From: Nitrospirota bacterium
GTDB lineage: Bacteria; Nitrospirota; Thermodesulfovibrionia; Thermodesulfovibrionales; SM23-35
DNA: 64,000 bases
Reading direction: 5' to 3'
Assembly: GCA_040754395.1 (NCBI GenBank)
Contig: JBFMCL010000001.1
Span: 103,634 to 167,633 of the forward strand
A model generated the notes under the pieces. The model made no database searches, was not told the origin of the DNA, and was given only the letters and a program-made list of their open reading frames with translations. The translations under genes and the position numbers were made by a program. Positions 2 through 59,835 of this stretch are shown in pieces; positions within the stretch are counted from its first letter, which is position 1, and each line of letters opens with the position of its first letter.

Positions 2-895
2 AAGCCTGTTGCGGTGGGTGCGGAAGCAAAACGGATGCTCGGGAAAACCCCCGCAAACATTATTGCGATACGCCCCATGAAAGACGGGGTCATTGCGGAT
101 TTCGACGCGACAGGCGAAATGCTCAAGTATTTCATCACAAAAGTCCACAACAGAAGGAGCTTTGTCTCACCGAGGGTCATCATCGGGGTACCTTCAGGCA
201 TCACACAGGTTGAGCAGCGCGCGGTCAAGGATGCTGCCCAGGTATCAGGCGCAAGAGAGGTATATCTGATAGGCGAGCCCATGGCTGCAGCCATCGGTGT
301 CGGGCTCCCTGTCGGCGAACCTTCAGGAAACATGATCGTTGATATCGGAGGCGGTACGACAGACGTTGCCGTCATTTCCCTTGACGGAGTCGTCTACAGC
401 AAGGCGGTGAGGGTCGGCGGCGACAAGATGGATGATGCAATCATGGCATTCATCAAGCGGAGATACAATCTCATGATCGGAGACATGACTGCTGAACAGA
501 TAAAGATTACCATCGGGTCTGCCTATCCCACAGAAGGCAGCGATGCAAGGACCATGGAAGTAAAGGGGAGGGACCTCATTTCGGGGATTCCCAAGACCCT
601 CACGATCAATGAAACAGAGATACGCGAGGCGCTCGCAGAGCCTGTGAATGTTATCCTCGACACCATAAAGGTAATCCTTGAGAATACCCCTCCCGAACTT
701 GCGTCAGATATTGTTGACAGAGGAATCATCCTCGCAGGCGGTGGAGCCCTGCTCAGGGGACTGGACCTGCTCATCCGTGAGGAGACCGGGCTGCCGGTAT
801 TGGTAGCCGAAGACCCCCTCACGGCAATTGTCCGGGGTGTAGGCAAAATGCTTGATGAAATTGATTTGCTGAAAAGAGTAGCTATTAATCTATAA
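2..895 (+). CDS. mreB: Rod shape-determining protein MreB (5' partial)
   Basis: C-terminal ~297 residues of the bacterial actin homologue that forms membrane-bound filaments and positions the wall elongation machinery. The reading frame is open from base 2, so the true start lies before the window; the GTG at 14 is just an internal valine. The actin-fold phosphate loop [12 protein letters not shown] is at about 341-373, and the adenosine-binding [11 protein letters not shown] near 727-760. Family identity is unambiguous along the whole visible length. The TAA stop shares one base with the mreC start (ATAATG), so translation is probably coupled. It is the first visible gene of a mreBCD-mrdA-rodA locus. 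Confidence 0.96.
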
Positions 896-1677
896 TGCCT
901 AAAAAGAGGCTTCTGCTTTTTCTGTTTGTCATCCTGTCTCTCAGCGTGATGACCTACCAGAGCAACAGGCAGCATTTCCTCCCTTTCAAATTCCTGAACG
1001 GAGTTTTCAACAAAGTCCATGATGCAAAACATGCGGTAAAGGAGTTTATTTCCTCTCCCTTCAGAAAAATGCTGCTGAGGGAACAGGAGAATGCTCGCCT
1101 GAAACAGGAAATCTCTCTGCTGATGCAGAAACAGCAGAAATGCCTGGAGGCCCTTTCTGAAAACCAGAGGCTCAGGGAGATTCTCGCGCTCCGGGAAAAA
1201 GAGCCGAAATACGTTACGGGCGCACGGGTCATCTCAAGGAATACCGACCAGTGGTCCAATACGCTCGTGCTCGACAAAGGGAGTGCGGACGGCGTGAAAA
1301 AAGACATGTCCGTCGTGACGGAAAAAGGCCTGGTGGGAAAGATCGCGGGAGTTTCCGGTTCCTATTCCTATCTCCTGCTCCTGAGCGACATCAACTTTTC
1401 CGTATCGGCAAGGCTCCAGGAAAGCCGGGCCGAAGGAGTCGTTTCAGGGACAGGGTTCAGAAAATGCCGGCTGAAATACCTCCCCTTTGAAGACGAGGTC
1501 AAGATAGGATCTGCAGTCATCACATCAGGACTCGACATGCTGTTTCCGCCGGGAATTCCGATCGGATATGTGACGAAGGTCAACAAAAAAGGGGTCGGGT
1601 TTTTTCAGGACATCGAGGTTCTCCCTTTTGCAGACAGCAACAAAATTGAGGTCGTTGCAATAATAAAAAAGGAATGA
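895..1677 (+). CDS. mreC: Rod shape-determining protein MreC
   Basis: Bitopic periplasmic scaffold of the elongasome (260 residues, a usual MreC length). A short cytoplasmic tail (MPKKR) is followed by one membrane helix at about residues 5-22. A Leu/Glu-rich coiled coil lies at about 50-100, and then comes the beta-rich MreC domain with the conserved V-x-G-x-V-G type segment (KGLVGKIAGVS). MreC dimerises and activates the PBP2-RodA pair, whose genes lie just downstream. The start overlaps the mreB stop by one base and the end overlaps the mreD start by four bases (ATGA), so the three mre genes are one transcription and translation unit. Confidence 0.95.
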   Translation: MPKKRLLLFLFVILSLSVMTYQSNRQHFLPFKFLNGVFNKVHDAKHAVKEFISSPFRKMLLREQENARLKQEISLLMQKQQKCLEALSENQRLREILALREKEPKYVTGARVISRNTDQWSNTLVLDKGSADGVKKDMSVVTEKGLVGKIAGVSGSYSYLLLLSDINFSVSARLQESRAEGVVSGTGFRKCRLKYLPFEDEVKIGSAVITSGLDMLFPPGIPIGYVTKVNKKGVGFFQDIEVLPFADSNKIEVVAIIKKE

Positions 1678-19896: not shown

Positions 19897-20892
19897 TCAG
19901 GCGAAAGAAGATTCTCTGACCTGCAACCCCTGATAGGTTTTCAATGAGCTTTTCAACTGATCCGGAGTGACTACTGCTGTTCCGACTTCACCAACCACTA
20001 TCCCGGCTGCATGATTTGCGATGACTGCAGATTCTTCCATGCTCGCGCCTGCTGAATACGCAAGAGTAAATGTTGCGATGACAGTATCTCCGGCACCCGT
20101 GACATCGAATACATTCTTTGCTGCGGTAGGGATATGGACTGCCCTGTCCTTCTGAAAAAGACTCATGCCATGCTCGCCCCGTGTAATCAGTACCGCGCCG
20201 CATCCGAGTTTTTTCAGGAGTGCCTTCCCTGCCTTTATCAGGGACTTTTCATCCCTGATCTCTATGCCCGAGGCACTGGACGCCTCATGCAGGTTCGGCG
20301 TGACGAGAGACACTTTCCGATAGCAGTGGAAATGGCCGATCTTCGGGTCGACCGCGACAAAGATTTTTTCCGGCTTCGCCCTTTTCAGCACTGCCTTGAC
20401 AAGTTCAGCCGAAACCACCCCCTTTTTGTAGTCAGAGACAATTACTGCATCATGCAGAGGAATTTCCCTCTGCAGATATTCCATGAGATTATTGAGGAGT
20501 TTTCCCTCTACCCTGTTTTTGTCCTCCCTGTCGAACCTCACAACCTGCTGGCTGTGCGCAATGACCCGCGTTTTCATTGTCGTGGGCCGTGAGCCGTACA
20601 ACACGCCCTCACTCCTCAATCCTCGTTCTGCAAGCATACCGCTGAGGATTTCACCGCCCCGGTCACGACCTGCCACACCCGCTACGGTTGCGTGGCCACC
20701 GAGTGAGGCGATATTATGCGCCACGTTTGCTGCCCCGCCAAGGAGATAATTTTCACTGGTTACCTCCACAATCGGCACCGGCGCCTCCGGGGATATCCTG
20801 CTGACCCTTCCCCAGATATACCGGTCAAGGATCAGGTCTCCGATAACCAGTATCTTCCTGTTTTGTATCCCGCTAAGGATTCTGCTGTACAT
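19897..20892 (-). CDS. rfaE1: D-glycero-beta-D-manno-heptose-7-phosphate kinase (HldE domain I)
   Basis: PfkB-family sugar kinase that makes heptose-1,7-bisphosphate for the LPS inner core. The carbohydrate-binding start is KILVIGDLILDRYIWG; GGAANVAHNIASLGG follows; the catalytic C-terminal motif is DVTGAGDTVIATF. Only the kinase half of the bifunctional HldE is present, so the adenylyltransferase (RfaE2) must be a separate gene. I start it at ATG 20892 (MYSRILSG), with GGGAG immediately upstream; the frame is open to 20979, adding residues without domain content. It links functionally to the LPS-core genes at both ends of the window. Confidence 0.92.
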   Translation of the reverse strand: MYSRILSGIQNRKILVIGDLILDRYIWGRVSRISPEAPVPIVEVTSENYLLGGAANVAHNIASLGGHATVAGVAGRDRGGEILSGMLAERGLRSEGVLYGSRPTTMKTRVIAHSQQVVRFDREDKNRVEGKLLNNLMEYLQREIPLHDAVIVSDYKKGVVSAELVKAVLKRAKPEKIFVAVDPKIGHFHCYRKVSLVTPNLHEASSASGIEIRDEKSLIKAGKALLKKLGCGAVLITRGEHGMSLFQKDRAVHIPTAAKNVFDVTGAGDTVIATFTLAYSAGASMEESAVIANHAAGIVVGEVGTAVVTPDQLKSSLKTYQGLQVRESSFA

Positions 20893-50005: not shown

Positions 50006-50413
50006 TCAGATGATCTCGTACTTCAGCTTTTGCCTTCCAAAAACAACTGCTTCAGAATACTCCCACATATAGATGTCAAAATTCTCACATCCGTACCGGC
50101 GGTTCATCCTGTCCTGAATTTCGAAAATCCTGTCATTCACCCTGATCTTCGTTCCGAACGGAAGGCAGTTATTGGCAGCGATTCCGTCTCTTACTTTCTG
50201 ATTGCTCGCAGTTATCGTAGGGGTGCTGTCGGTTTCGGCGGCGGTTGCGGTATACGCGGTGAAGATGCCGGTCTGTTCAAGCGCTTCTGTCTCGACTCGA
50301 AACTCATACCGCAGGGAAAATGCCAGCAGCCCTATGACCGCGAATTTCAGGAAAAACAATGTTCTGAGAGTACGTTTCTTATTCATTTCTCTATTATTTT
50401 TCTGCTTGAACAA
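50006..50413 (-). CDS. 3D domain (RlpA/double-psi barrel-like) exported protein
   Basis: 135 residues. A membrane segment (about 22-37) acts as uncleaved anchor or signal. The rest is a 3D domain: FTAYTATAAETDSTPTITAS, then IAANNCLPFGTKIRV and NRRYGCENFDIYM. The three conserved aspartates of the name are partly kept (D-S in the first, D in IQDRMN, D in FDIYM). Such domains occur in lytic transglycosylases and wall-acting proteins. It has a promoter with TTGACA-17-ATTAAT (50476-50448). Confidence 0.75.
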   Translation of the reverse strand: MFKQKNNREMNKKRTLRTLFFLKFAVIGLLAFSLRYEFRVETEALEQTGIFTAYTATAAETDSTPTITASNQKVRDGIAANNCLPFGTKIRVNDRIFEIQDRMNRRYGCENFDIYMWEYSEAVVFGRQKLKYEII

Positions 50414-50857: not shown

Positions 50858-53800
50858 ATGAAGACTGGAAGCAAAGCATTTCTGTGTCTGTTATGTTTCG
50901 TTTGCATACCCCTTTCCATACTGCCCCCCGCTGACGCGGCCATGAACGATTACTGTATCGTGCCTCCTTTTGTCATCGCAGGGGTGAAACCCAACCTTCT
51001 CCTCATGATCGACAATTCAGGCAGCATGTTCGACCTCACGTACATCGATCTGGGCACTGCCACCCGAAAACCCTTTTACTGCTACGACAAAACGTATAAA
51101 TTCGCAAACCACTATACGGGATATTTCCAGGATACCGTAGCTCCCCCCAATCCTACAAATCCTGCCTGGTATGTATATTATGAATATGATTTTACCAATG
51201 ACTACTTCTACAAGGTTTCCGAACCGACATGGGCAAGCTGCAACGTCTATATCCCTGGCACACTCTGTATAAACGGCACCAACCTTACCAATACCAGCAC
51301 GCCGAAAACCCTCACAAAATTCGTTGCGGAAGGGAATTATCTGAACTGGCTCACCTCATCCAAGTTCGATATCCAGAAGCACATACTGACAGGCGGCAAA
51401 TACGATACCGCTACCAATAACCTGATTTCCGAAGGAAGGGGATGTGTCGGGAGGAAGTTCATTAAAGAGCCGATTGTGAACCAGTCGTATGTGGAGGGAG
51501 GCGCCAACACCGGGCTGGGGGTGACCTTTGCGATAAAAGGCCCGGACCATCCCTACAGTGAGACATTAGTCTCACCCGGCGGCCAGACATATATAGAAAT
51601 ATATGCGGGAGACTACACCGAGAGCAACTGCCAGAAGGCAGTGACAGATATCATCAATCAGGAGAACAAAAATACCATAACCAACGATATCGAGCTTTGC
51701 CTGAATTATGATTCCAAGGGGAAATACTGCTCTCTCGATATGTTCACGAGCTGTACGAGCGACACGGATTGCGCCGGGACTCCGGGCACCTGCGCGATAG
51801 TAAACGACGGTGTGTGCACAGCCGCAAGCAACGGCATATGTACTGTCTCCACTACCGGGACATGCACCTCCAATGACGGAACCTGTTCGGGAAGCAAATA
51901 CTGCATTGGCGGAAGCAACGCCGGCGCAGCATGCAATAACAATAATCAGTGCAACAGCGGGGTCTGCTCCAAGAGATGCAACGGCGGCGGCAAGGACGGA
52001 GCGACATGCAATAACAACAACGACTGCAAATTCAAATCGTGCACGACCGGAAAAGTCGGAAGCACGTGCAGCGCGAACGCAGACTGTGACGTGAAAACAT
52101 GCTCGGCAGGCCTTGTGGGAAACCTGTGCATTGCAAACTCTGACTGCAATACGAAAGCCTGCTCGGCTCCTGCTGCGAAGGTGGGAACCGCATGCGCGGT
52201 CAACACGGACTGCAATTCGGGTTCAGGCACCTGCACTGCAGGCAACATCGGCGCCGCATGCCTTGTCAACACAGACTGCGCGATAGGCTATAAAGGATAC
52301 TGCCAGAAGCCGGTCACGCAGCAGATCAAATCCACCTTCGGCCAGAGCATACACGAGTGCTATCAATACTGGAACACCGGCTCCCTTGTTGGAAACAACT
52401 GGTGGACAATGATGACCAACCCGCAGGGATGCAACCAGATATACAAGGAGCTCTATACCTGTAACGGAGGTGCGAGAGACGCAAAAACATGTGTGGTCGC
52501 TGCTGACTGCCCGGGCGGCACATGTATCAACGGCCCGGCAGCAATACGGCAGGGGAGTCCGATACTGGTATGCGGCCTCGGGTTTGTCGGGTATTGCGCC
52601 GGTTCTACCGATAACTGGCAGACCACCAACTGGTATGCCAGGGAGTATGCAACACCGGAAGCATGCGTGAAGGCGAAATTCGAGGCATTCTGCGCAGGCG
52701 CACAGGTGCCGCCGGTCATCGACCCGACCGACGACCCGTCCACGACGGAGAACTTTGACAACCTGCCGGCAATTATCGGCGATATGGGGATCGGCGCGCA
52801 GCTCGGGAACCCCATTGACGTGCTTACCGTAAAACTGAACACCGCGACAGTCCCGAAAGGGTTGATGCAGGACTTCCAGAACCTCATCCACTTCGGGGCC
52901 ATGACCTTTGACGCTTTTGGTTCATATACCGAATGTCCCGCAAATATCCCCTGTTCGAAAAAATGCGCAACCGCCCTCTCTGTCTGTATGGTAGACGCAG
53001 ACTGCCCCATTGGTGACACCTGTGTCGTCGCAAACAACCTGGACGGCGGCTATATCCTTGACAGCGGCAATAAGGAAGGGTATATTTTGGGCAGATGTTC
53101 GGTTACCAGTTCAACGACATGTGCGTTTGATTCCCAGTGTCCTGTAGGGGAAAGCTGCGTATTTTCCGTCGGCAGCCACAGTTCCGGTCTGATCAATGCG
53201 ATCGGCAATATCTTTGCCAGCACGTGGACGCCTTTTTCCGAAGGGTTTTACAATGCGATCGGCTACTTTGCCCAGAGAACGGACAGGCGGCTGAACGCTA
53301 CCGATTTCATTACGGAAGCAGAGAATGCTGCCTACAAGAAGCCTGTGCAATACAAGTGTCAGAAGAACAATATCCTCCTCATAACCGACGGCATGTCCAC
53401 GGCAGACCTGCATCCGGACGTCACCAGTCTTGTTTCTATGTATAACGAGGGTGACGGCCAGATCGACACGTCGGCTTCCGCAACCTGTCCCAAGTTTGCC
53501 GGAAGCAGAAACCTTGACGATCTCGCGTGGCTCGCAAAGAATAGAAATATCAAGAACTTCACCGAAACACCGGCAGCATCAGATCCGGAACTGAACAGCA
53601 AGACAATCACTACCTTTGTGGTGTTCAACGGAGTCCCGAGTACCGATCCCGGCGAATGCAATCCTGACACCCTGTTGAGGGAGACCGCAGAAAACGGCTG
53701 CGGGACTGCCGCGGGATGCTATCAAAGGGCTGAAACCCCGGACCAGCTGAAGAACGCGCTCCGGCAGGCCTTTCTGACCATCTCTGCGAAGGCCGCATCC

Positions 53801-56221
53801 GGAACCGCTGCATCGGTGCTTGCATCGGGCGAGGGGAGCGGCGCAAACCTCCTGCAGGCGGTCTTTTATCCCAAGCGTTTATTCGGCACAACAGAGATAG
53901 AATGGACCGGCGCACTCCAGAACTACTGGTATTATATCGATCCCCTGCTGAACTACAGCTCCATTCGCGAGGACTCAGCAACCACCAATATCCTCGACCT
54001 GAGGACCGATTATATCATGAGCTTCTTCTTCGACACCGATAACCAAACGAAGGTGAAGCTCTTTGCTGACGCGGACGGCAACGGCATACCTGACAGTGCG
54101 ACACCGGTCCAGATAAAATACCTCGATGAGACGATCGATCCTGCAAACAGGATAAAGTATATCTGGGAAGCAGGCAGGCTGCTCTGGGACCGTGACCCCG
54201 TAACAAGAACACTCTATACCTTTGATGGAACAGGCAGGGTGCAGATCCCGAATACCACGACTCCCGTTGCTGCGGGCTCGCCGCTGATCTCGCTTCTTCA
54301 GGCTGCTGATGTGAATGAGGCAAATGCGATCATGCGGTACGTACGCGGCGAAGACACGCCCTTCAATCCTGCGATCGCCGGCTTCACCCCGACCTACAGG
54401 AACAGGACTGTTACCATCAGCGGTACCACCCGCACATGGAAGCTCGGGGACATCATCAGCTCAACGCCCAAGGTGTCTTCATGGATACCGCTGAACGTCT
54501 ATCATCTCCTCTACAACGACAGCACTTATGGGCCTTTGGGGCAGAACCCGAAGCTGAACGACCCGGTCAACAACAACCATTTCATCACGACCAGCGCCTA
54601 TAAGGGAAGGGGGATGGTCTTTGTCGGCGGAAACGACGGCATGCTCCATGCCTTCAAGCTCGGGTCTATTGAGCTTTCTGACGACAAGTTCACGAAGGCA
54701 ACCCTGACCGGTGCGAATATCGGGCAGGAGGCCTGGGCGTACATTCCCCAGAATGCCCTGCCGTACCTGAAGCATCTGGCAGATCCCAATTACTGTCATC
54801 TGTATTATGTCGATGCGGTTCCCGCAGTCTTCGATGTCAGCATCGGCGGGAACCCCGGTGACGTGAAGACCGCGAGCAGCTGGCGGACCGTGCTGGTCGG
54901 CGGCATGCGCTTCGGAGGCGCATGCAAGGACGCGGCATCAACGTACGGGGTGCAGACGCCTGCAGCCGGCCTGGGGTATTCCTCGTACTTTGCCCTCGAT
55001 ATCACAGACCCGAATAATCCGCAGGTGCTCTGGGAGTTCTCGAATGCGAACCTGACCGCTGCAGAGAAGGCAACGGGCGGACTCGGGTTCGCCACTTCAG
55101 GGCCTGCGATCCTGAGGGTCGGGGAAAAGGACAAGAACGGCAGATGGTTTGCGGTATTCGGCTCCGGCCCGACAGGCCCGATCGACACGACTGCACACCA
55201 GTTTAAGGGCTACTCGGACCAGCCGCTGAAACTCTTCATTGTAGACCTAAAAAACGGTCCTACAGGCGGGAATTTCTGGGTAGTCAATACAGGGATTCAG
55301 AATGCATTTTCCGGTTCGATGGTCGGCGCGCCGATAGACCTTGACCAGAACAATCCCGGCGGAACAGGATACTACCAGGATGACGCCATGTATTTCGGCT
55401 ACACACAGGCCGAAGAGAATCCGCTCACGGCCAACACCAAATGGACAAAGGGAGGCGTCATACGTCTCGTCACAAAGGAAAATGCAGATCCGACCCAGTG
55501 GACATGGAATAAGGTTATGGAGAATATCGGGCCGGTCACCGCGCCTGTCGCCAAACTGCAGAATTACAAGGCCGGGAATGAAAACATATGGCTGTATTTT
55601 GGCACCGGAAGGTACTTCTTCAAGATCGCTTCGGTGATTGATGACTCTGACAGCCTGAGGACAATGTACGGGATAAAAGATCCCTGTTTCAACAGCCCGT
55701 CGTATCCGCTGAAACTCGATCCGAACTGCACTGACACGCCTGCCTGGATAACCGATGCAACCGCATCCTCTTCAGCTTCCGCAGGCAACTGGAAGATCAA
55801 CCTCGACCTCTGCACAAACGCATCGGGTGCTTTGGTTGCATGCAACGATGCGAGTGTCCTGTTCAGGGCAGAGCGCGTGGTAACCCCGCCTGTCGTCTCC
55901 CCAACCGGTGCGGTCTTCTTCACTACCATTAAGCCGTCCGCAGATGTCTGCGAGTTCGGCGGCGTCTCACACCTCTGGGGCCTGAAATATGACACAGGAG
56001 GTTCGGTAAACAGGGGGCTGCTGAAAGGAACCGCGCTGATGCAGGTTTCAACAGGCAGCATTGAGGAGAAGAAACTCAGCGAGATATTCACCGAGAAGGT
56101 GGATTCAACCACTGGCGAAGGAAGAAGATCCACCGCGATTATCGGTGAAGCTTCATCAGAGCCGGTGATTCCTGTGCCGCCGAAGCCTGTCAACAGGGTG
56201 CTGCATATACGGGAGAGATGA
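50858..56221 (+). CDS. pilY1: PilY1-like type IV pilus tip/biogenesis protein with cysteine-repeat insert
   Basis: 1787 residues, much longer than the ~1,160 of Pseudomonas PilY1. Signal peptide 1-27 (ADA). A von Willebrand A-like region begins LLLMIDNSGSMFDL (MIDAS DxSGS). Residues about 295-475 are an array of cysteine units of the form C-x5-C (CTSDTDC, CNNNNQC, CSANADC, CIANSDC, CAVNTDC, CLVNTDC), with three more further on, about ten in all. The C-terminal ~750 residues form the PilY1/PilC beta-propeller with GRGMVFVGGNDGMLHAF; a calcium loop DADGNGIPD is encoded at about 54067-54093. GAGGTG lies before the ATG. It heads an operon with minor pilins and probably sits at the pilus tip for adhesion and assembly. 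Confidence 0.92.
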   Translation: MKTGSKAFLCLLCFVCIPLSILPPADAAMNDYCIVPPFVIAGVKPNLLLMIDNSGSMFDLTYIDLGTATRKPFYCYDKTYKFANHYTGYFQDTVAPPNPTNPAWYVYYEYDFTNDYFYKVSEPTWASCNVYIPGTLCINGTNLTNTSTPKTLTKFVAEGNYLNWLTSSKFDIQKHILTGGKYDTATNNLISEGRGCVGRKFIKEPIVNQSYVEGGANTGLGVTFAIKGPDHPYSETLVSPGGQTYIEIYAGDYTESNCQKAVTDIINQENKNTITNDIELCLNYDSKGKYCSLDMFTSCTSDTDCAGTPGTCAIVNDGVCTAASNGICTVSTTGTCTSNDGTCSGSKYCIGGSNAGAACNNNNQCNSGVCSKRCNGGGKDGATCNNNNDCKFKSCTTGKVGSTCSANADCDVKTCSAGLVGNLCIANSDCNTKACSAPAAKVGTACAVNTDCNSGSGTCTAGNIGAACLVNTDCAIGYKGYCQKPVTQQIKSTFGQSIHECYQYWNTGSLVGNNWWTMMTNPQGCNQIYKELYTCNGGARDAKTCVVAADCPGGTCINGPAAIRQGSPILVCGLGFVGYCAGSTDNWQTTNWYAREYATPEACVKAKFEAFCAGAQVPPVIDPTDDPSTTENFDNLPAIIGDMGIGAQLGNPIDVLTVKLNTATVPKGLMQDFQNLIHFGAMTFDAFGSYTECPANIPCSKKCATALSVCMVDADCPIGDTCVVANNLDGGYILDSGNKEGYILGRCSVTSSTTCAFDSQCPVGESCVFSVGSHSSGLINAIGNIFASTWTPFSEGFYNAIGYFAQRTDRRLNATDFITEAENAAYKKPVQYKCQKNNILLITDGMSTADLHPDVTSLVSMYNEGDGQIDTSASATCPKFAGSRNLDDLAWLAKNRNIKNFTETPAASDPELNSKTITTFVVFNGVPSTDPGECNPDTLLRETAENGCGTAAGCYQRAETPDQLKNALRQAFLTISAKAASGTAASVLASGEGSGANLLQAVFYPKRLFGTTEIEWTGALQNYWYYIDPLLNYSSIREDSATTNILDLRTDYIMSFFFDTDNQTKVKLFADADGNGIPDSATPVQIKYLDETIDPANRIKYIWEAGRLLWDRDPVTRTLYTFDGTGRVQIPNTTTPVAAGSPLISLLQAADVNEANAIMRYVRGEDTPFNPAIAGFTPTYRNRTVTISGTTRTWKLGDIISSTPKVSSWIPLNVYHLLYNDSTYGPLGQNPKLNDPVNNNHFITTSAYKGRGMVFVGGNDGMLHAFKLGSIELSDDKFTKATLTGANIGQEAWAYIPQNALPYLKHLADPNYCHLYYVDAVPAVFDVSIGGNPGDVKTASSWRTVLVGGMRFGGACKDAASTYGVQTPAAGLGYSSYFALDITDPNNPQVLWEFSNANLTAAEKATGGLGFATSGPAILRVGEKDKNGRWFAVFGSGPTGPIDTTAHQFKGYSDQPLKLFIVDLKNGPTGGNFWVVNTGIQNAFSGSMVGAPIDLDQNNPGGTGYYQDDAMYFGYTQAEENPLTANTKWTKGGVIRLVTKENADPTQWTWNKVMENIGPVTAPVAKLQNYKAGNENIWLYFGTGRYFFKIASVIDDSDSLRTMYGIKDPCFNSPSYPLKLDPNCTDTPAWITDATASSSASAGNWKINLDLCTNASGALVACNDASVLFRAERVVTPPVVSPTGAVFFTTIKPSADVCEFGGVSHLWGLKYDTGGSVNRGLLKGTALMQVSTGSIEEKKLSEIFTEKVDSTTGEGRRSTAIIGEASSEPVIPVPPKPVNRVLHIRER

Positions 56222-56751
56222 GCGTGCTGCGCGCAGAGTATAATCAACGCGGTGTCACACTGGTGGAACTGATGGTGATTGTAAGCATCATCAGTGTGCT
56301 GGTCGTTGCCCTCGGATTTTCCTACGAGGGGTGGATAGGGAACTATAAAATCGAAAGCCAGACGAGACAGCTCTACTCTGACCTTATGGATGCCCGGACC
56401 AGGGCGATCACACAGAACAGGATGCATTTTGTCGTGCTGAATGCCGGCAACTATGCGGTCTATGCAGATACGAACGACAACACTGCAGCGGACCCGGGTG
56501 CAGGCGATATTCCGCTTCCCGAATTCCGGGACCCCGGCACCCTGAACGTCAAACCGAAGAACGTAGAGTATACGCTGGGATGGACTGGGACAATACCGTT
56601 TAATACGAGGGGACTTACGACGTCTGCAGCAGAAATTACCATCCCCCTCACCCTTCCTTCCGGAACACATCCGGACTATGACTGCGTCCTTGTACACCAG
56701 TCAAGGATTCGGACAGGGCTGATGACAGGAGGTGTATGTGTATCTAAATAA
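56218..56751 (+). CDS. fimT: Prepilin-like minor pilin, FimT/GspH type
   Basis: 177 residues. The type III prepilin signal ends in RG, followed by VTLVELMVIVSIISVLVVALG with Glu at +5, cut by PilD before V. The globular part has a GspH/FimT-like pattern and an acidic loop (ADTNDNTAADPGAGD). It overlaps the pilY1 stop by four bases (ATGA), which shows a coupled operon. Confidence 0.88.
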   Translation: MSVLRAEYNQRGVTLVELMVIVSIISVLVVALGFSYEGWIGNYKIESQTRQLYSDLMDARTRAITQNRMHFVVLNAGNYAVYADTNDNTAADPGAGDIPLPEFRDPGTLNVKPKNVEYTLGWTGTIPFNTRGLTTSAAEITIPLTLPSGTHPDYDCVLVHQSRIRTGLMTGGVCVSK

Positions 56752-57166
56752 CAGGGGCGTTACCCTCATTGAGGTCATGCTCGCGCTGGTGGTGCTCCTT
56801 CTCGTCTTTGTGGGGCTGGTCCAGACCGCGTTGCTGAGCATCGACAATAACCTCCGAAATATTTATCGCGACGAAGCGGTGGCCATCGCGACAGAGCGGA
56901 TGAGCGAGCTGAAGACCATGTCGTTTGACGCACTCACCGCACTGGCAGGCACAGGTTGCCAGACAGATACAAAAGACTTCAGAAATATAAAGAACAAGCA
57001 GTTTACCACCTGTGCACGCATCGATGCGCTCGATGCGGATACCAACAGGATACGGATAACAGTAGGATGGGACCACAGACTGGAAACCGCTGCACCTCCG
57101 GTCAGCCAGGACCATCCTACCGGCAGGGAATTTGATTTCAGTATCGCATCAGTGAGGAGACGATGA
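56732..57166 (+). CDS. pilV: Minor pilin PilV
   Basis: 144 residues. Prepilin motif RG/VTLIEVMLALVVLLLVFVGLVQ with Glu5, followed by the PilV-typical helix (ERMSELKTM) and short globular domain. Its start overlaps fimT by 20 bases, and its end overlaps pilW by four bases. Confidence 0.88.
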   Translation: MYVYLNNRGVTLIEVMLALVVLLLVFVGLVQTALLSIDNNLRNIYRDEAVAIATERMSELKTMSFDALTALAGTGCQTDTKDFRNIKNKQFTTCARIDALDADTNRIRITVGWDHRLETAAPPVSQDHPTGREFDFSIASVRRR

Positions 57167-58329
57167 AAAACAGACAATCCGGATTCACGATGGTCGAACT
57201 CCTGATCACCATGGCAGTATTTGTGCTTACCATCGCTGCGGTGGCAGGCATATTTGTCCCGCTGCTCACCCAGTTCAAGCAGCAGAGCAAGATCGCAGAG
57301 ACCCAAATCGAGGGACTCGTCGGGCTCGGCATTCTGCGCCGGGACATTGAACACGCGGGCTTTGGTATTCCCTGGGAAATACAAACAGGGGTTACCTACC
57401 AGGAAGCAGCAAACGCTCCCGGCAGTACGTACAATGAGCCTACCGCCGGAGGGACAACCGCGCCGCCAAGGGCGATCCTGAGCGGAAATGACATCGCCAT
57501 TGCCGGCATTGTGAACAGGTCCGATTATCTGGTGATCAAGGCAACAAACGTTGCTCCATTCAACGCGGCAACAAAGTGGACTGATGTCCTTACCATGCCC
57601 GACGGTTCACGGAGGGTACGGGTCTGGGGTTCTGCAATCGAGGATTTGAATGCAAACGACAGGGTGATTGTGATGATACCGAGCCTCGGTGAAACCCGCC
57701 AGAGAATTCTCGTGAACGACGGAGCGACTTTTTTCACGAGGTTTAACCAGGCAGCATTCCCTGCGGCATTTGCAGCAGGAACAACAGGGGCCGTGAACCT
57801 GGTATACGGGGTTACCGACCCGGACAACACCCCCCTGAGAATGCCGTTCAACAGGGCTGATTATTTTATCAGGACGGGAAACGCTCCCCAGAGGTGTGCG
57901 CCCAACACCGGTGTCCTTGTGAAGGCAGTGCTGCGGCAGGCAGACGGGGTGTATGATGAATGGCCCCTCCTTGACTGTGTCGCAGACATGCAGTTCGTGT
58001 ACTGCATTGACAACGACAATGACGGAGACTGTGAACCGGGCGCTGCCGGCAGCACAGATTTTTATACAAACGACCTTCCGGGTCTCGGGTACGATGCCCA
58101 GCAGACAAGAACCCGGGTAAAGGAGGTAAGGGCGTTTATCCTTGCCCATGAGGGCCAGAGGGACTGGACGTATACCTTTGCCCCTCCGGTTGCGCCGAAC
58201 TCGATCACTGTCGGAGAGTTCGGGTTGGGCAGAAATTTTAATCTTGCTACATCCATAGGAACCGGGTGGCAAAATTTCCGGTGGAAAGTATTTTCCTTAG
58301 TGATACAGCCGCGGAATCTGATGAGGTGA
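57163..58329 (+). CDS. pilW: Minor pilin PilW
   Basis: 388 residues. Prepilin motif SG/FTMVELLITMAVFVLTIAAVAG with Glu5. The large globular part includes ILRRDIEHAGFGIPW, typical of PilW (LRRDLRSAG-type), and an acidic CIDNDNDGDCEPG loop that could bind calcium. The start overlaps pilV by four bases. It is part of the tip complex with PilV, PilX and PilY1. Confidence 0.9.
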   Translation: MKNRQSGFTMVELLITMAVFVLTIAAVAGIFVPLLTQFKQQSKIAETQIEGLVGLGILRRDIEHAGFGIPWEIQTGVTYQEAANAPGSTYNEPTAGGTTAPPRAILSGNDIAIAGIVNRSDYLVIKATNVAPFNAATKWTDVLTMPDGSRRVRVWGSAIEDLNANDRVIVMIPSLGETRQRILVNDGATFFTRFNQAAFPAAFAAGTTGAVNLVYGVTDPDNTPLRMPFNRADYFIRTGNAPQRCAPNTGVLVKAVLRQADGVYDEWPLLDCVADMQFVYCIDNDNDGDCEPGAAGSTDFYTNDLPGLGYDAQQTRTRVKEVRAFILAHEGQRDWTYTFAPPVAPNSITVGEFGLGRNFNLATSIGTGWQNFRWKVFSLVIQPRNLMR

Positions 58330-58337
58330 GAGCGACC

Positions 58338-59078
58338 ATGAAATATACAAACAACATAGCGCACAGAACAAAAAAGAAAAGACACTCGACCGAACATCTT
58401 TCCGGCATGCACATCCTACGGTCTGAAAAGGGCATCGCACTCGTGATGGTGCTTGTGCTTGCGCTGATCGCGCTTGCGGTGGTGTCCACCATGATATATC
58501 TCGTGATTCAGGGAACGAAGTATTCGGGATATTCAAAGAGATATACCACCGCCCTTGATGCCGGACACGGGGCTTCCGAGATTACCACCGCGCTCATCAA
58601 CAACCGGGGCAATCTGGTAATCGGCGGGCTGGGGATAAACCTCTCTCCCCAGTGTGTATGCGGGTTTGATGCGAATCCGCTTGATGATCTCTATCCTGAT
58701 CCGTCCCCGAACACCTGCCTGTGCAGGAAACTCTGCATGCCGCCCTATTCCGGGGCTATCTACAACTGGGGACAGGGGCCGGCCCCGTGTAACGCAGACG
58801 GTGCGAACATGGACCCGACCGCAAGCCCTGACATGCAGTTCGACCTCACCGGTTTTGGCACAAACTACCGGGTCACCACAAAAATCGTGGACACTACCAT
58901 TGGCGCAACTGATCTTAGCGGAGAGCAGCTTTCCTGCGGAACAGGCGTAGGCTATCAGTGCGGTTCACTGGAAGGGATCCCGACGCCATACCTGTACCGG
59001 GTAGAAATCAATTCACAGGATGCAAACCCGTTGAACGTGAGAGAAAGATCGCGCCTGTCGGTCCTTTATGCATATTAG
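58338..59078 (+). CDS. pilX: PilX-like minor pilin/assembly protein
   Basis: 246 residues. A basic leader of ~30 residues ends in EKG, then IALVMVLVLALIALAVVSTM, the PilX_N pattern (no Glu5). The mature region has cysteine clusters (CVCGFD, CLCRKLCMPP). ATG 58338 (MKYTNN) is chosen as start, with GAGGTGAG upstream; the frame is open inside pilW to 58266. It overlaps the lipoprotein by eleven bases. Confidence 0.82.
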   Translation: MKYTNNIAHRTKKKRHSTEHLSGMHILRSEKGIALVMVLVLALIALAVVSTMIYLVIQGTKYSGYSKRYTTALDAGHGASEITTALINNRGNLVIGGLGINLSPQCVCGFDANPLDDLYPDPSPNTCLCRKLCMPPYSGAIYNWGQGPAPCNADGANMDPTASPDMQFDLTGFGTNYRVTTKIVDTTIGATDLSGEQLSCGTGVGYQCGSLEGIPTPYLYRVEINSQDANPLNVRERSRLSVLYAY

Positions 59079-59835
59079 GAGACAGATAAAATACCTTGCT
59101 CCGGTAGCTCTAATGCTGCTCTGCACCGCAATGCTGTGCTGGGGATGCCGGGGGAAGGAGGAAAAACAGGCAGCGCTTCCCGTTTCACCCGGGCCAGGGC
59201 AGCAGGAATCTGTTCCTTTGCCTGCTCCTTCCGGAAGACCTTCCGGCGAATCCCCGGCAATTCCTCCTGAAGTAATGGCCGATACCCCTCCGCAGGTGAC
59301 TTCCATTAAGGTCACACCGGGAACACCAACCCTGAAAGACCCCATTAAAGCCCTAATCGGCGTATACGACAAGGAGGGGGACAACATCACCCTTGCCTAT
59401 TATTGGTACAGGAACGGTGAACTTCTCCCTGAGACATCCGACACCCTGTCCGGGGGCTTCAGGCGGGGAGACAAGATAACCCTGACTGTTGTCCCGGATG
59501 ACGGAAAAAGAAAGGGGAACCATGCCTCAGTCCTTGTAACCATCGCCAATTCACCTCCCGCGATAAAGGCATCCGCAGACACCCATGCATTCAATGGCAG
59601 GGAATACACCTACCAGGTGAAGGCAACGGACCCCGACGGTGATCCGCTTACGTATTCTCTTAAATCCGCACCGGCAGGAATGACCATTGATCCTGCGACC
59701 GGTCTGGTACGGTGGAAGATTACCCCGGACTACAGCGGGACTATCCCGTACATTGTGGCGGTTGCTGACGGCAGCGGCGGAGAAGGCTTGCTGGAGCTTT
59801 CTTTCGAAGTCAGACGAAGCCTTAAAACAAAATAA
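59068..59835 (+). CDS. Lipoprotein with cadherin/Ig-like domain
   Basis: 255 residues. Signal with lipobox LCWGC (Cys about 27), a Pro/Glu-rich linker to about residue 70, then two beta-sandwich repeats. The second has the He_PIG/cadherin-like pattern YQVKATDPDGDPLTYSLKSAP ... GMTIDPATGLVRW. It probably anchors the pilus or presents a binding domain at the outer membrane. It is the last gene of the pilus operon. Confidence 0.8.
   Translation: MHIRRQIKYLAPVALMLLCTAMLCWGCRGKEEKQAALPVSPGPGQQESVPLPAPSGRPSGESPAIPPEVMADTPPQVTSIKVTPGTPTLKDPIKALIGVYDKEGDNITLAYYWYRNGELLPETSDTLSGGFRRGDKITLTVVPDDGKRKGNHASVLVTIANSPPAIKASADTHAFNGREYTYQVKATDPDGDPLTYSLKSAPAGMTIDPATGLVRWKITPDYSGTIPYIVAVADGSGGEGLLELSFEVRRSLKTK

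Follow-up and report, generated by a model that had tools for sequence, protein, structure and literature searches.

The substrates to which type IV pili adhere, and the way in which cells sense surfaces, are determined by PilY1 heads, and how these heads have diversified is poorly known. The 64,000-nucleotide stretch of DNA analysed here (the window), from a group of uncultured bacteria allied to Nitrospira, carries a pilY1-like gene whose product contains a tandem array of cysteine-rich units, and it raises the question of where this array sits in the head and what it could do there. The gene (50858–56221, plus strand, from the open reading frame listing) encodes 1787 residues with 70 cysteines, has a ribosome-binding-like GAGGTG just 5' of its start and begins with a signal peptide (aa 1–27; 50858–50938, plus strand). 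The PilY1 of P. aeruginosa has 1161 residues, and the window protein exceeds it by ~620, in agreement with the roughly 600 additional residues claimed by an earlier note on this DNA. It is also ~470 residues longer than the genome's two other PilY1 paralogues (1315 and 1309 aa; L061 and L062, contigs C5 and C27), both of which lack the array. The C5 paralogue carries one cysteine module ahead of its YRNRTV motif. With three PilY1 heads in this genome, the cell may switch among tip heads.

The assignment to the PilY1 family rests on several features. The beta-propeller (54590–55264, aa 1245–1469, plus strand) matches Pfam T4P_PilY1 (PF05567) with an E value of 2.7e-7 and 30.3 bits, above the cutoff of 28.1, and a vWA fold with the MIDAS pattern DxSxS...T...D occupies the N terminus. 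Downstream on the plus strand lie a GspH/FimU-like minor pilin (56218–56751; GspH and N_methyl, both E 1.1e-6), a PilV-like minor pilin (56732–57166; N_methyl) and a PilW-like minor pilin (57163–58329; N_methyl E 6.5e-7, with PilW at 23.2 bits, below its cutoff of 26), so that the gene adjoins minor pilins as expected for pilY1. They are followed by a PilX-like protein (58335–59078, plus strand) named from its position and hydrophobic N terminus, with no family match. Judged from sequence, this is the PilY1-type head gene of a minor-pilin operon, and membership of the family would place its product at the pilus tip. A sequence search with the whole window protein returned no homologue of solved structure, and a literature search on PilY1 in Nitrospirota found nothing relevant. 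Stretches resembling DxDxNxxxD, putative calcium sites, are present in the sequence. Directly 3' of the operon, window positions 59068–59835 encode an Ig/cadherin-like domain protein (He_PIG, E 6e-10) that could be part of the pilus system, and upstream of pilY1 a small exported 135-residue ORF (50006–50413, minus strand) putatively resembles a 3D/RlpA-like domain.

The tandem array (51728–52303, aa 291–482, plus strand) consists of about eight units of the form C-x5-8-C-x5-C-x4-6, each of ~20 residues, with 28 cysteines within aa 282–482. The earlier note had placed a cysteine-unit region at 51752–53140, and these limits are exact: the first is the opening base of CTSDTDC (aa 299) and the second is the base at which CAFDSQC ends (aa 761). 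All the C-x5-C motifs that it named are present, and its count of about ten holds for those of the CxxD/NxD/N/QC kind; the whole protein has 15 C-x5-C motifs, 14 of them at aa 299–767. In the cluster, at aa 299–474, there are eight motifs rather than seven, mostly 20–25 residues apart. Composition-matched shuffling of aa 281–482, which holds 29 cysteines and eight C-x5-C motifs, gave eight such motifs in 1 of 5000 trials and seven typed units in none of 5000. Some of the tandem units have three cysteines, and these would need pairing across units. Beyond the array lie an isolated unit, CNGGARDAKTCVVAADCPGGTC (52460–52525, aa 535–556, plus strand), and two isolated four-cysteine units on the plus strand, CATALSVCMVDADCPIGDTC (52964–53023, aa 703–722) and CSVTSSTTCAFDSQCPVGESC (53096–53158, aa 747–767; profile A2, E 4.6e-10). 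The site of the last of these is empty in the relative G100.

A repetitive region in a draft genome of 75 contigs could in principle be a product of misassembly or sequencing error. The DNA copies are, however, different enough for unique assembly, and the same array recurs, unit by unit, in three independent genomes; these orthologues in effect refute an artefact, to which we give practically no weight. A tandem repeat at the DNA level was rejected, the only such feature being two 53-nucleotide copies at 75% identity with no tandem array, and the units are old and diverged. No independent copy of the array was found elsewhere in the genome, the sole second match lying within the same gene; a match at 20122 in the window is antisense to a sugar-kinase-like gene and was dismissed as chance. 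Searched against Pfam and NCBIfam, the tandem array gave zero matches up to an E value of 10.

The earlier note put the array after the vWA region and before the propeller, and this proved to be wrong. In an alignment of 19 sequences the MIDAS residues are invariant, and the array falls between the DxSxS motif (D52, S54 and S56; 51011–51025; D26, S28 and S30 of A1, offset 26) and the MIDAS threonine (T791; 53228–53230; T765 of A1) and aspartate (D844; 53387–53389; D818 of A1), all on the plus strand. A vWA core strand, LIHFGAMTFD, with the loop that follows it (52883–52936, aa 676–693, plus strand) also lies C-terminal to the array. In an AlphaFold model (AF2, aa 27–1010) the vWA core has pLDDT values mostly of 70–95, and VIA-align recovered a single vWA fold over model residues 14–959 (Z 15.4, 222 aligned residues); its best matches were PilB, a minor pilin with a vWA domain from Streptococcus sanguinis (7ba2/7b7p), and the tip protein PitA. 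Plain Foldseek gave weak matches, none with E < 0.1, mostly to vWA/I domains. Since MIDAS residues stand on both sides and one vWA fold spans the region, the array lies within the vWA domain, which with all its insertions extends over 50969–53812 (aa ~38–985, plus strand). The alignment and the model together indicate a helix-flanked insertion, in a variable slot bounded by C258 and C501 (51629–52360, plus strand) that is the base of an alpha-hairpin. The array itself has pLDDT values mostly of 20–40 in both AlphaFold models, too low for its shape, compact finger or other, and its disulfide pairing to be read from either.

We compared this slot in 21 proteins of the same PilY1 class, including the window protein. 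It is empty in 10 (41–48 aa, three cysteines, or four in one case), contains two units in five (115–120 aa, 11 cysteines), three units in one (145 aa, 15 cysteines), about six in another (216 aa, 23 cysteines) and about eight in four (244–263 aa, 31 cysteines; 244 aa in the window protein). On a tree built from the rest of the protein at least eight changes of copy class are needed, and the eight-unit G100 is the sister of the two-unit G548 with full support; this pattern implies recurrent shifts in copy number, whether through gain, loss or exchange. Besides its eight-unit slot, the G100 protein (L050; 2069 aa, 101 cysteines) has modules in numerous further loops of the vWA domain and the propeller. 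The earlier note had proposed a comparison of repeat number among relatives, which does vary, and had held that relatives lacking the array with identical pilus function would speak against its reading. The first half of that case is found in ten relatives whose PilY1 is intact except that the slot is empty; the array is thus an added elaboration that the protein family can do without.

The cysteines are far better conserved than their surroundings. All 28 of the window array (aa 282–482) are kept in the eight-unit relatives G007, G008 and G100, in which the non-cysteine positions are 60, 59 and 36% identical to the window protein. Together with slot counts that step by multiples of four (mostly 3, then 11, 15, 23 and 31), this conservation supports the disulfide-rich character proposed in the earlier note, and the steps make closed disulfide modules likelier than metal ligation. 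That note had also offered a metal-binding stalk, and a stalk that binds metal or mineral through cysteine thiolates and aspartates would suit a segment rich in Cys and Asp/Asn. Histidine and glutamate are absent from aa 291–482, however, the cysteines behave as paired residues, and the lone modules described below resemble the disulfide families TIGR04201, DUF7107, WAP and DPY, so that we regard metal binding as very unlikely. Thus the earlier observation of an array was real and its location mistaken, and of the accompanying interpretation a disulfide-rich array that varies in copy number among relatives survives, whereas its placement and metal binding do not.

Taken together, these data suggest that the relatives' module series in one slot reflects a stiff arm of adjustable length with which surfaces are touched. 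Our preferred reading, which we consider probable, is a disulfide-stabilized arm on the vWA head of a PilY1-type adhesin, with a reach set by module number. A helical hairpin would interrupt the vWA fold after the first MIDAS motif and before a later core strand, and its tip would bear about eight disulfide-closed mini-modules in tandem. After export, disulfides would form in each module to give the vWA head a stiff protrusion that resists proteases, and at the pilus tip this arm may position, shield or extend the head. Module number would then set the reach and possibly the binding specificity, comparable with the ComC finger and with the arms of vWA domains at Gram-positive pilus tips. The 0, 2, 3, about 6 or 8 modules found in one slot offer a natural length series suited to a direct test of what vWA arms do. 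Several observations count against this reading. The AlphaFold models give the array low confidence throughout, and its three-cysteine units would need pairing with their neighbours. The empty slot in ten relatives indicates that an arm is dispensable for the fold, and the disulfide-forming system of the genome itself is weakly evidenced, with no VKOR found and two marginal, partial DsbA matches.

The modules might instead act as a disulfide-tunable spring in a mechanosensing vWA domain, unfolding or shuffling their disulfides under pilus tension. In P. aeruginosa PilY1 both surface signalling and the conformational change induced by force depend on the vWA residue Cys152, and twitching does not (PMC8806160), and the array sits in the same kind of domain. 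Closed modules with all their cysteines conserved should, however, resist extension, and a side insertion need not lie in the load path; we consider force sensing rather unlikely.

The arm is one of many settings in which the module occurs. In its lone form it has the consensus C-S-x5-7-C-xxDxD-C-PxGEx-C, with 21 residues and four cysteines. A DNA pattern for it matched 18 of 101 related genomes (a few of the matches lying outside open frames) and a reversed control none, and a profile matched 34 of the 101, the strong matches being mostly PilY1 ORFs. Further afield, 19 of 246 genomes across the phylum match at E 1e-5; for the phylum of UBA5730 the figure is 5 of 247. In 56 PilY1 proteins we counted 71 modules, against means of 0.08 in shuffled sequences and 0.33 with local shuffling. 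They occupy roughly 30 positions across the PilY1 of this order, which are approximate in the vWA loops and include about ten in the better-aligned C-terminal half; the site ahead of the YRNRTV motif holds a module in at least six PilY1 proteins. For 94 of 119 modules with usable flanks, at least one homologue aligns over the flanks once these are joined, any gap being small, and although many of these alignments are weak, the propeller cases are convincing (for example L050 offset 1622, L119 offset 501 and L121 offset 955).

Modules are also present in minor pilins of the same operons, in C25-like proteases and in cytochrome-like ORFs. GspH/FimT-like minor pilins beside pilY1 carry one in-frame four-cysteine module in L048 (3160–3772, minus strand), L139 (6858–7491, plus strand), L142 and L091. 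Proteins of ~1800–2000 residues with a C25-protease-like C terminus have one or two (L132, 976–6403, and L137, 806–6803, both minus strand), and a small exported protein of 313–331 residues in genomes G031 and G086 (L096, L097 and L138) has one conserved module, CSLTLPRRSC.... Genome G023 (L134, L135 and L136) encodes exported proteins of 2824 and 2727 residues with eight four-cysteine modules each, adjoining very cysteine-rich ORFs, apparently multihaem cytochromes, that themselves contain modules; an extracellular complex of these proteins is possible.

This wide scatter could reflect neutral proliferation, the four-cysteine module being a tolerated, non-adaptive insertion in exported loops and the array a local duplication. 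The number of occupied PilY1 positions, the flanks that rejoin in homologues and the spread to pilins, proteases and cytochrome-like ORFs are all compatible with that account. Against it stand the conservation of 28 of 28 cysteines and of their register across large divergence, the strong concentration of modules in PilY1 and the lack of any sign of recent copying at the DNA level, and we judge it quite improbable. Module codon identity within genomes is 0.503 against an expected 0.459, and between genomes 0.478 against 0.435; no recent within-genome copying is seen, and with no excess within over between genomes a mobile DNA element was rejected. A broader proposal, which we put forward tentatively and hold somewhat less likely to be right than wrong, is that the 21-residue two-disulfide mini-module is a reusable part with a history of many gains and losses, at dozens of loop positions in PilY1 and in neighbouring pilins, and was tandemly amplified into the length-adjustable arm of this vWA head, a case of modular evolution of pilus-tip binding heads. 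As a tiny domain repeatedly inserted in frame, the dispersed module makes a tractable case.

Among known repeats, the closest relative of the lone module is TIGR04201 (Myxo_Cys_RPT), the repeat of the Myxococcus TraA stalk, which is thought to present the TraA recognition domain (PMC3325183). The module shares three invariant cysteines in a repeat of ~22 residues with this family, and 22 of 24 lone modules match it, one of them (a G047 unit, 27.4 bits) above the cutoff of 25 bits; the lone units of the window score 16.1 and 14.4 bits, below that cutoff, and the tandem array has no match to it. Both systems are extracellular, with tandem and dispersed copies of a ~22-residue cysteine repeat, although TraA, a surface receptor, carries a PA14-like domain and MYXO-CTERM. 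The TraA stalk has been modelled as a disulfide-stiffened beta-hairpin shaft (PMC12045341), and by this analogy the rod or stalk shape that the earlier note suggested for the array is plausible (PMC3325183, PMC12045341). The Dumpy DPY module (PF21164, PDB 1oig) is likewise 21 residues long, and its C-x5-CP-x4/5-C pattern aligns at E 5.7e-4 over 16 residues, a very short similarity that does not establish homology. Its copies lie between the EGF modules of a very large extracellular protein (PMC2930355); this is an animal protein with EGF partners, whereas no EGF family matched the window protein.

Closer in architecture are other pilus-tip proteins. PF05567 PilY1/PilC proteins share the vWA domain with MIDAS, the propeller, the minor-pilin operon and the existence of long cysteine-rich forms. 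The myxobacterial PilY1 clades 1.5–1.7 are long and cysteine-rich, with medians of 30–41 cysteines, and repeats go unmentioned in the text on these clades (PMC13190605); the window protein has 70 and that of G100 101, with a tandem array in one vWA slot and stepwise copy number. In RrgA, GBS104 and PitA, inserted arms near the MIDAS of pilus-tip vWA domains have been proposed to form a ligand cradle (reviewed in PMC7893114), although these belong to sortase pili and have arms built of hairpins, helices and loops in place of a cysteine-module array. The nearest architectural precedent is ComC of Acinetobacter baumannii, whose vWA domain bears a finger-like protrusion; deletion of this finger and deletion of the vWA domain affected adhesion, twitching and transformation alike (PMC10374093). 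The ComC finger has ~90 residues and a tyrosine-rich motif, whereas the window arm is a ~200-residue array of cysteine modules, but in both cases a T4aP tip adhesin has the insertion inside its vWA domain.
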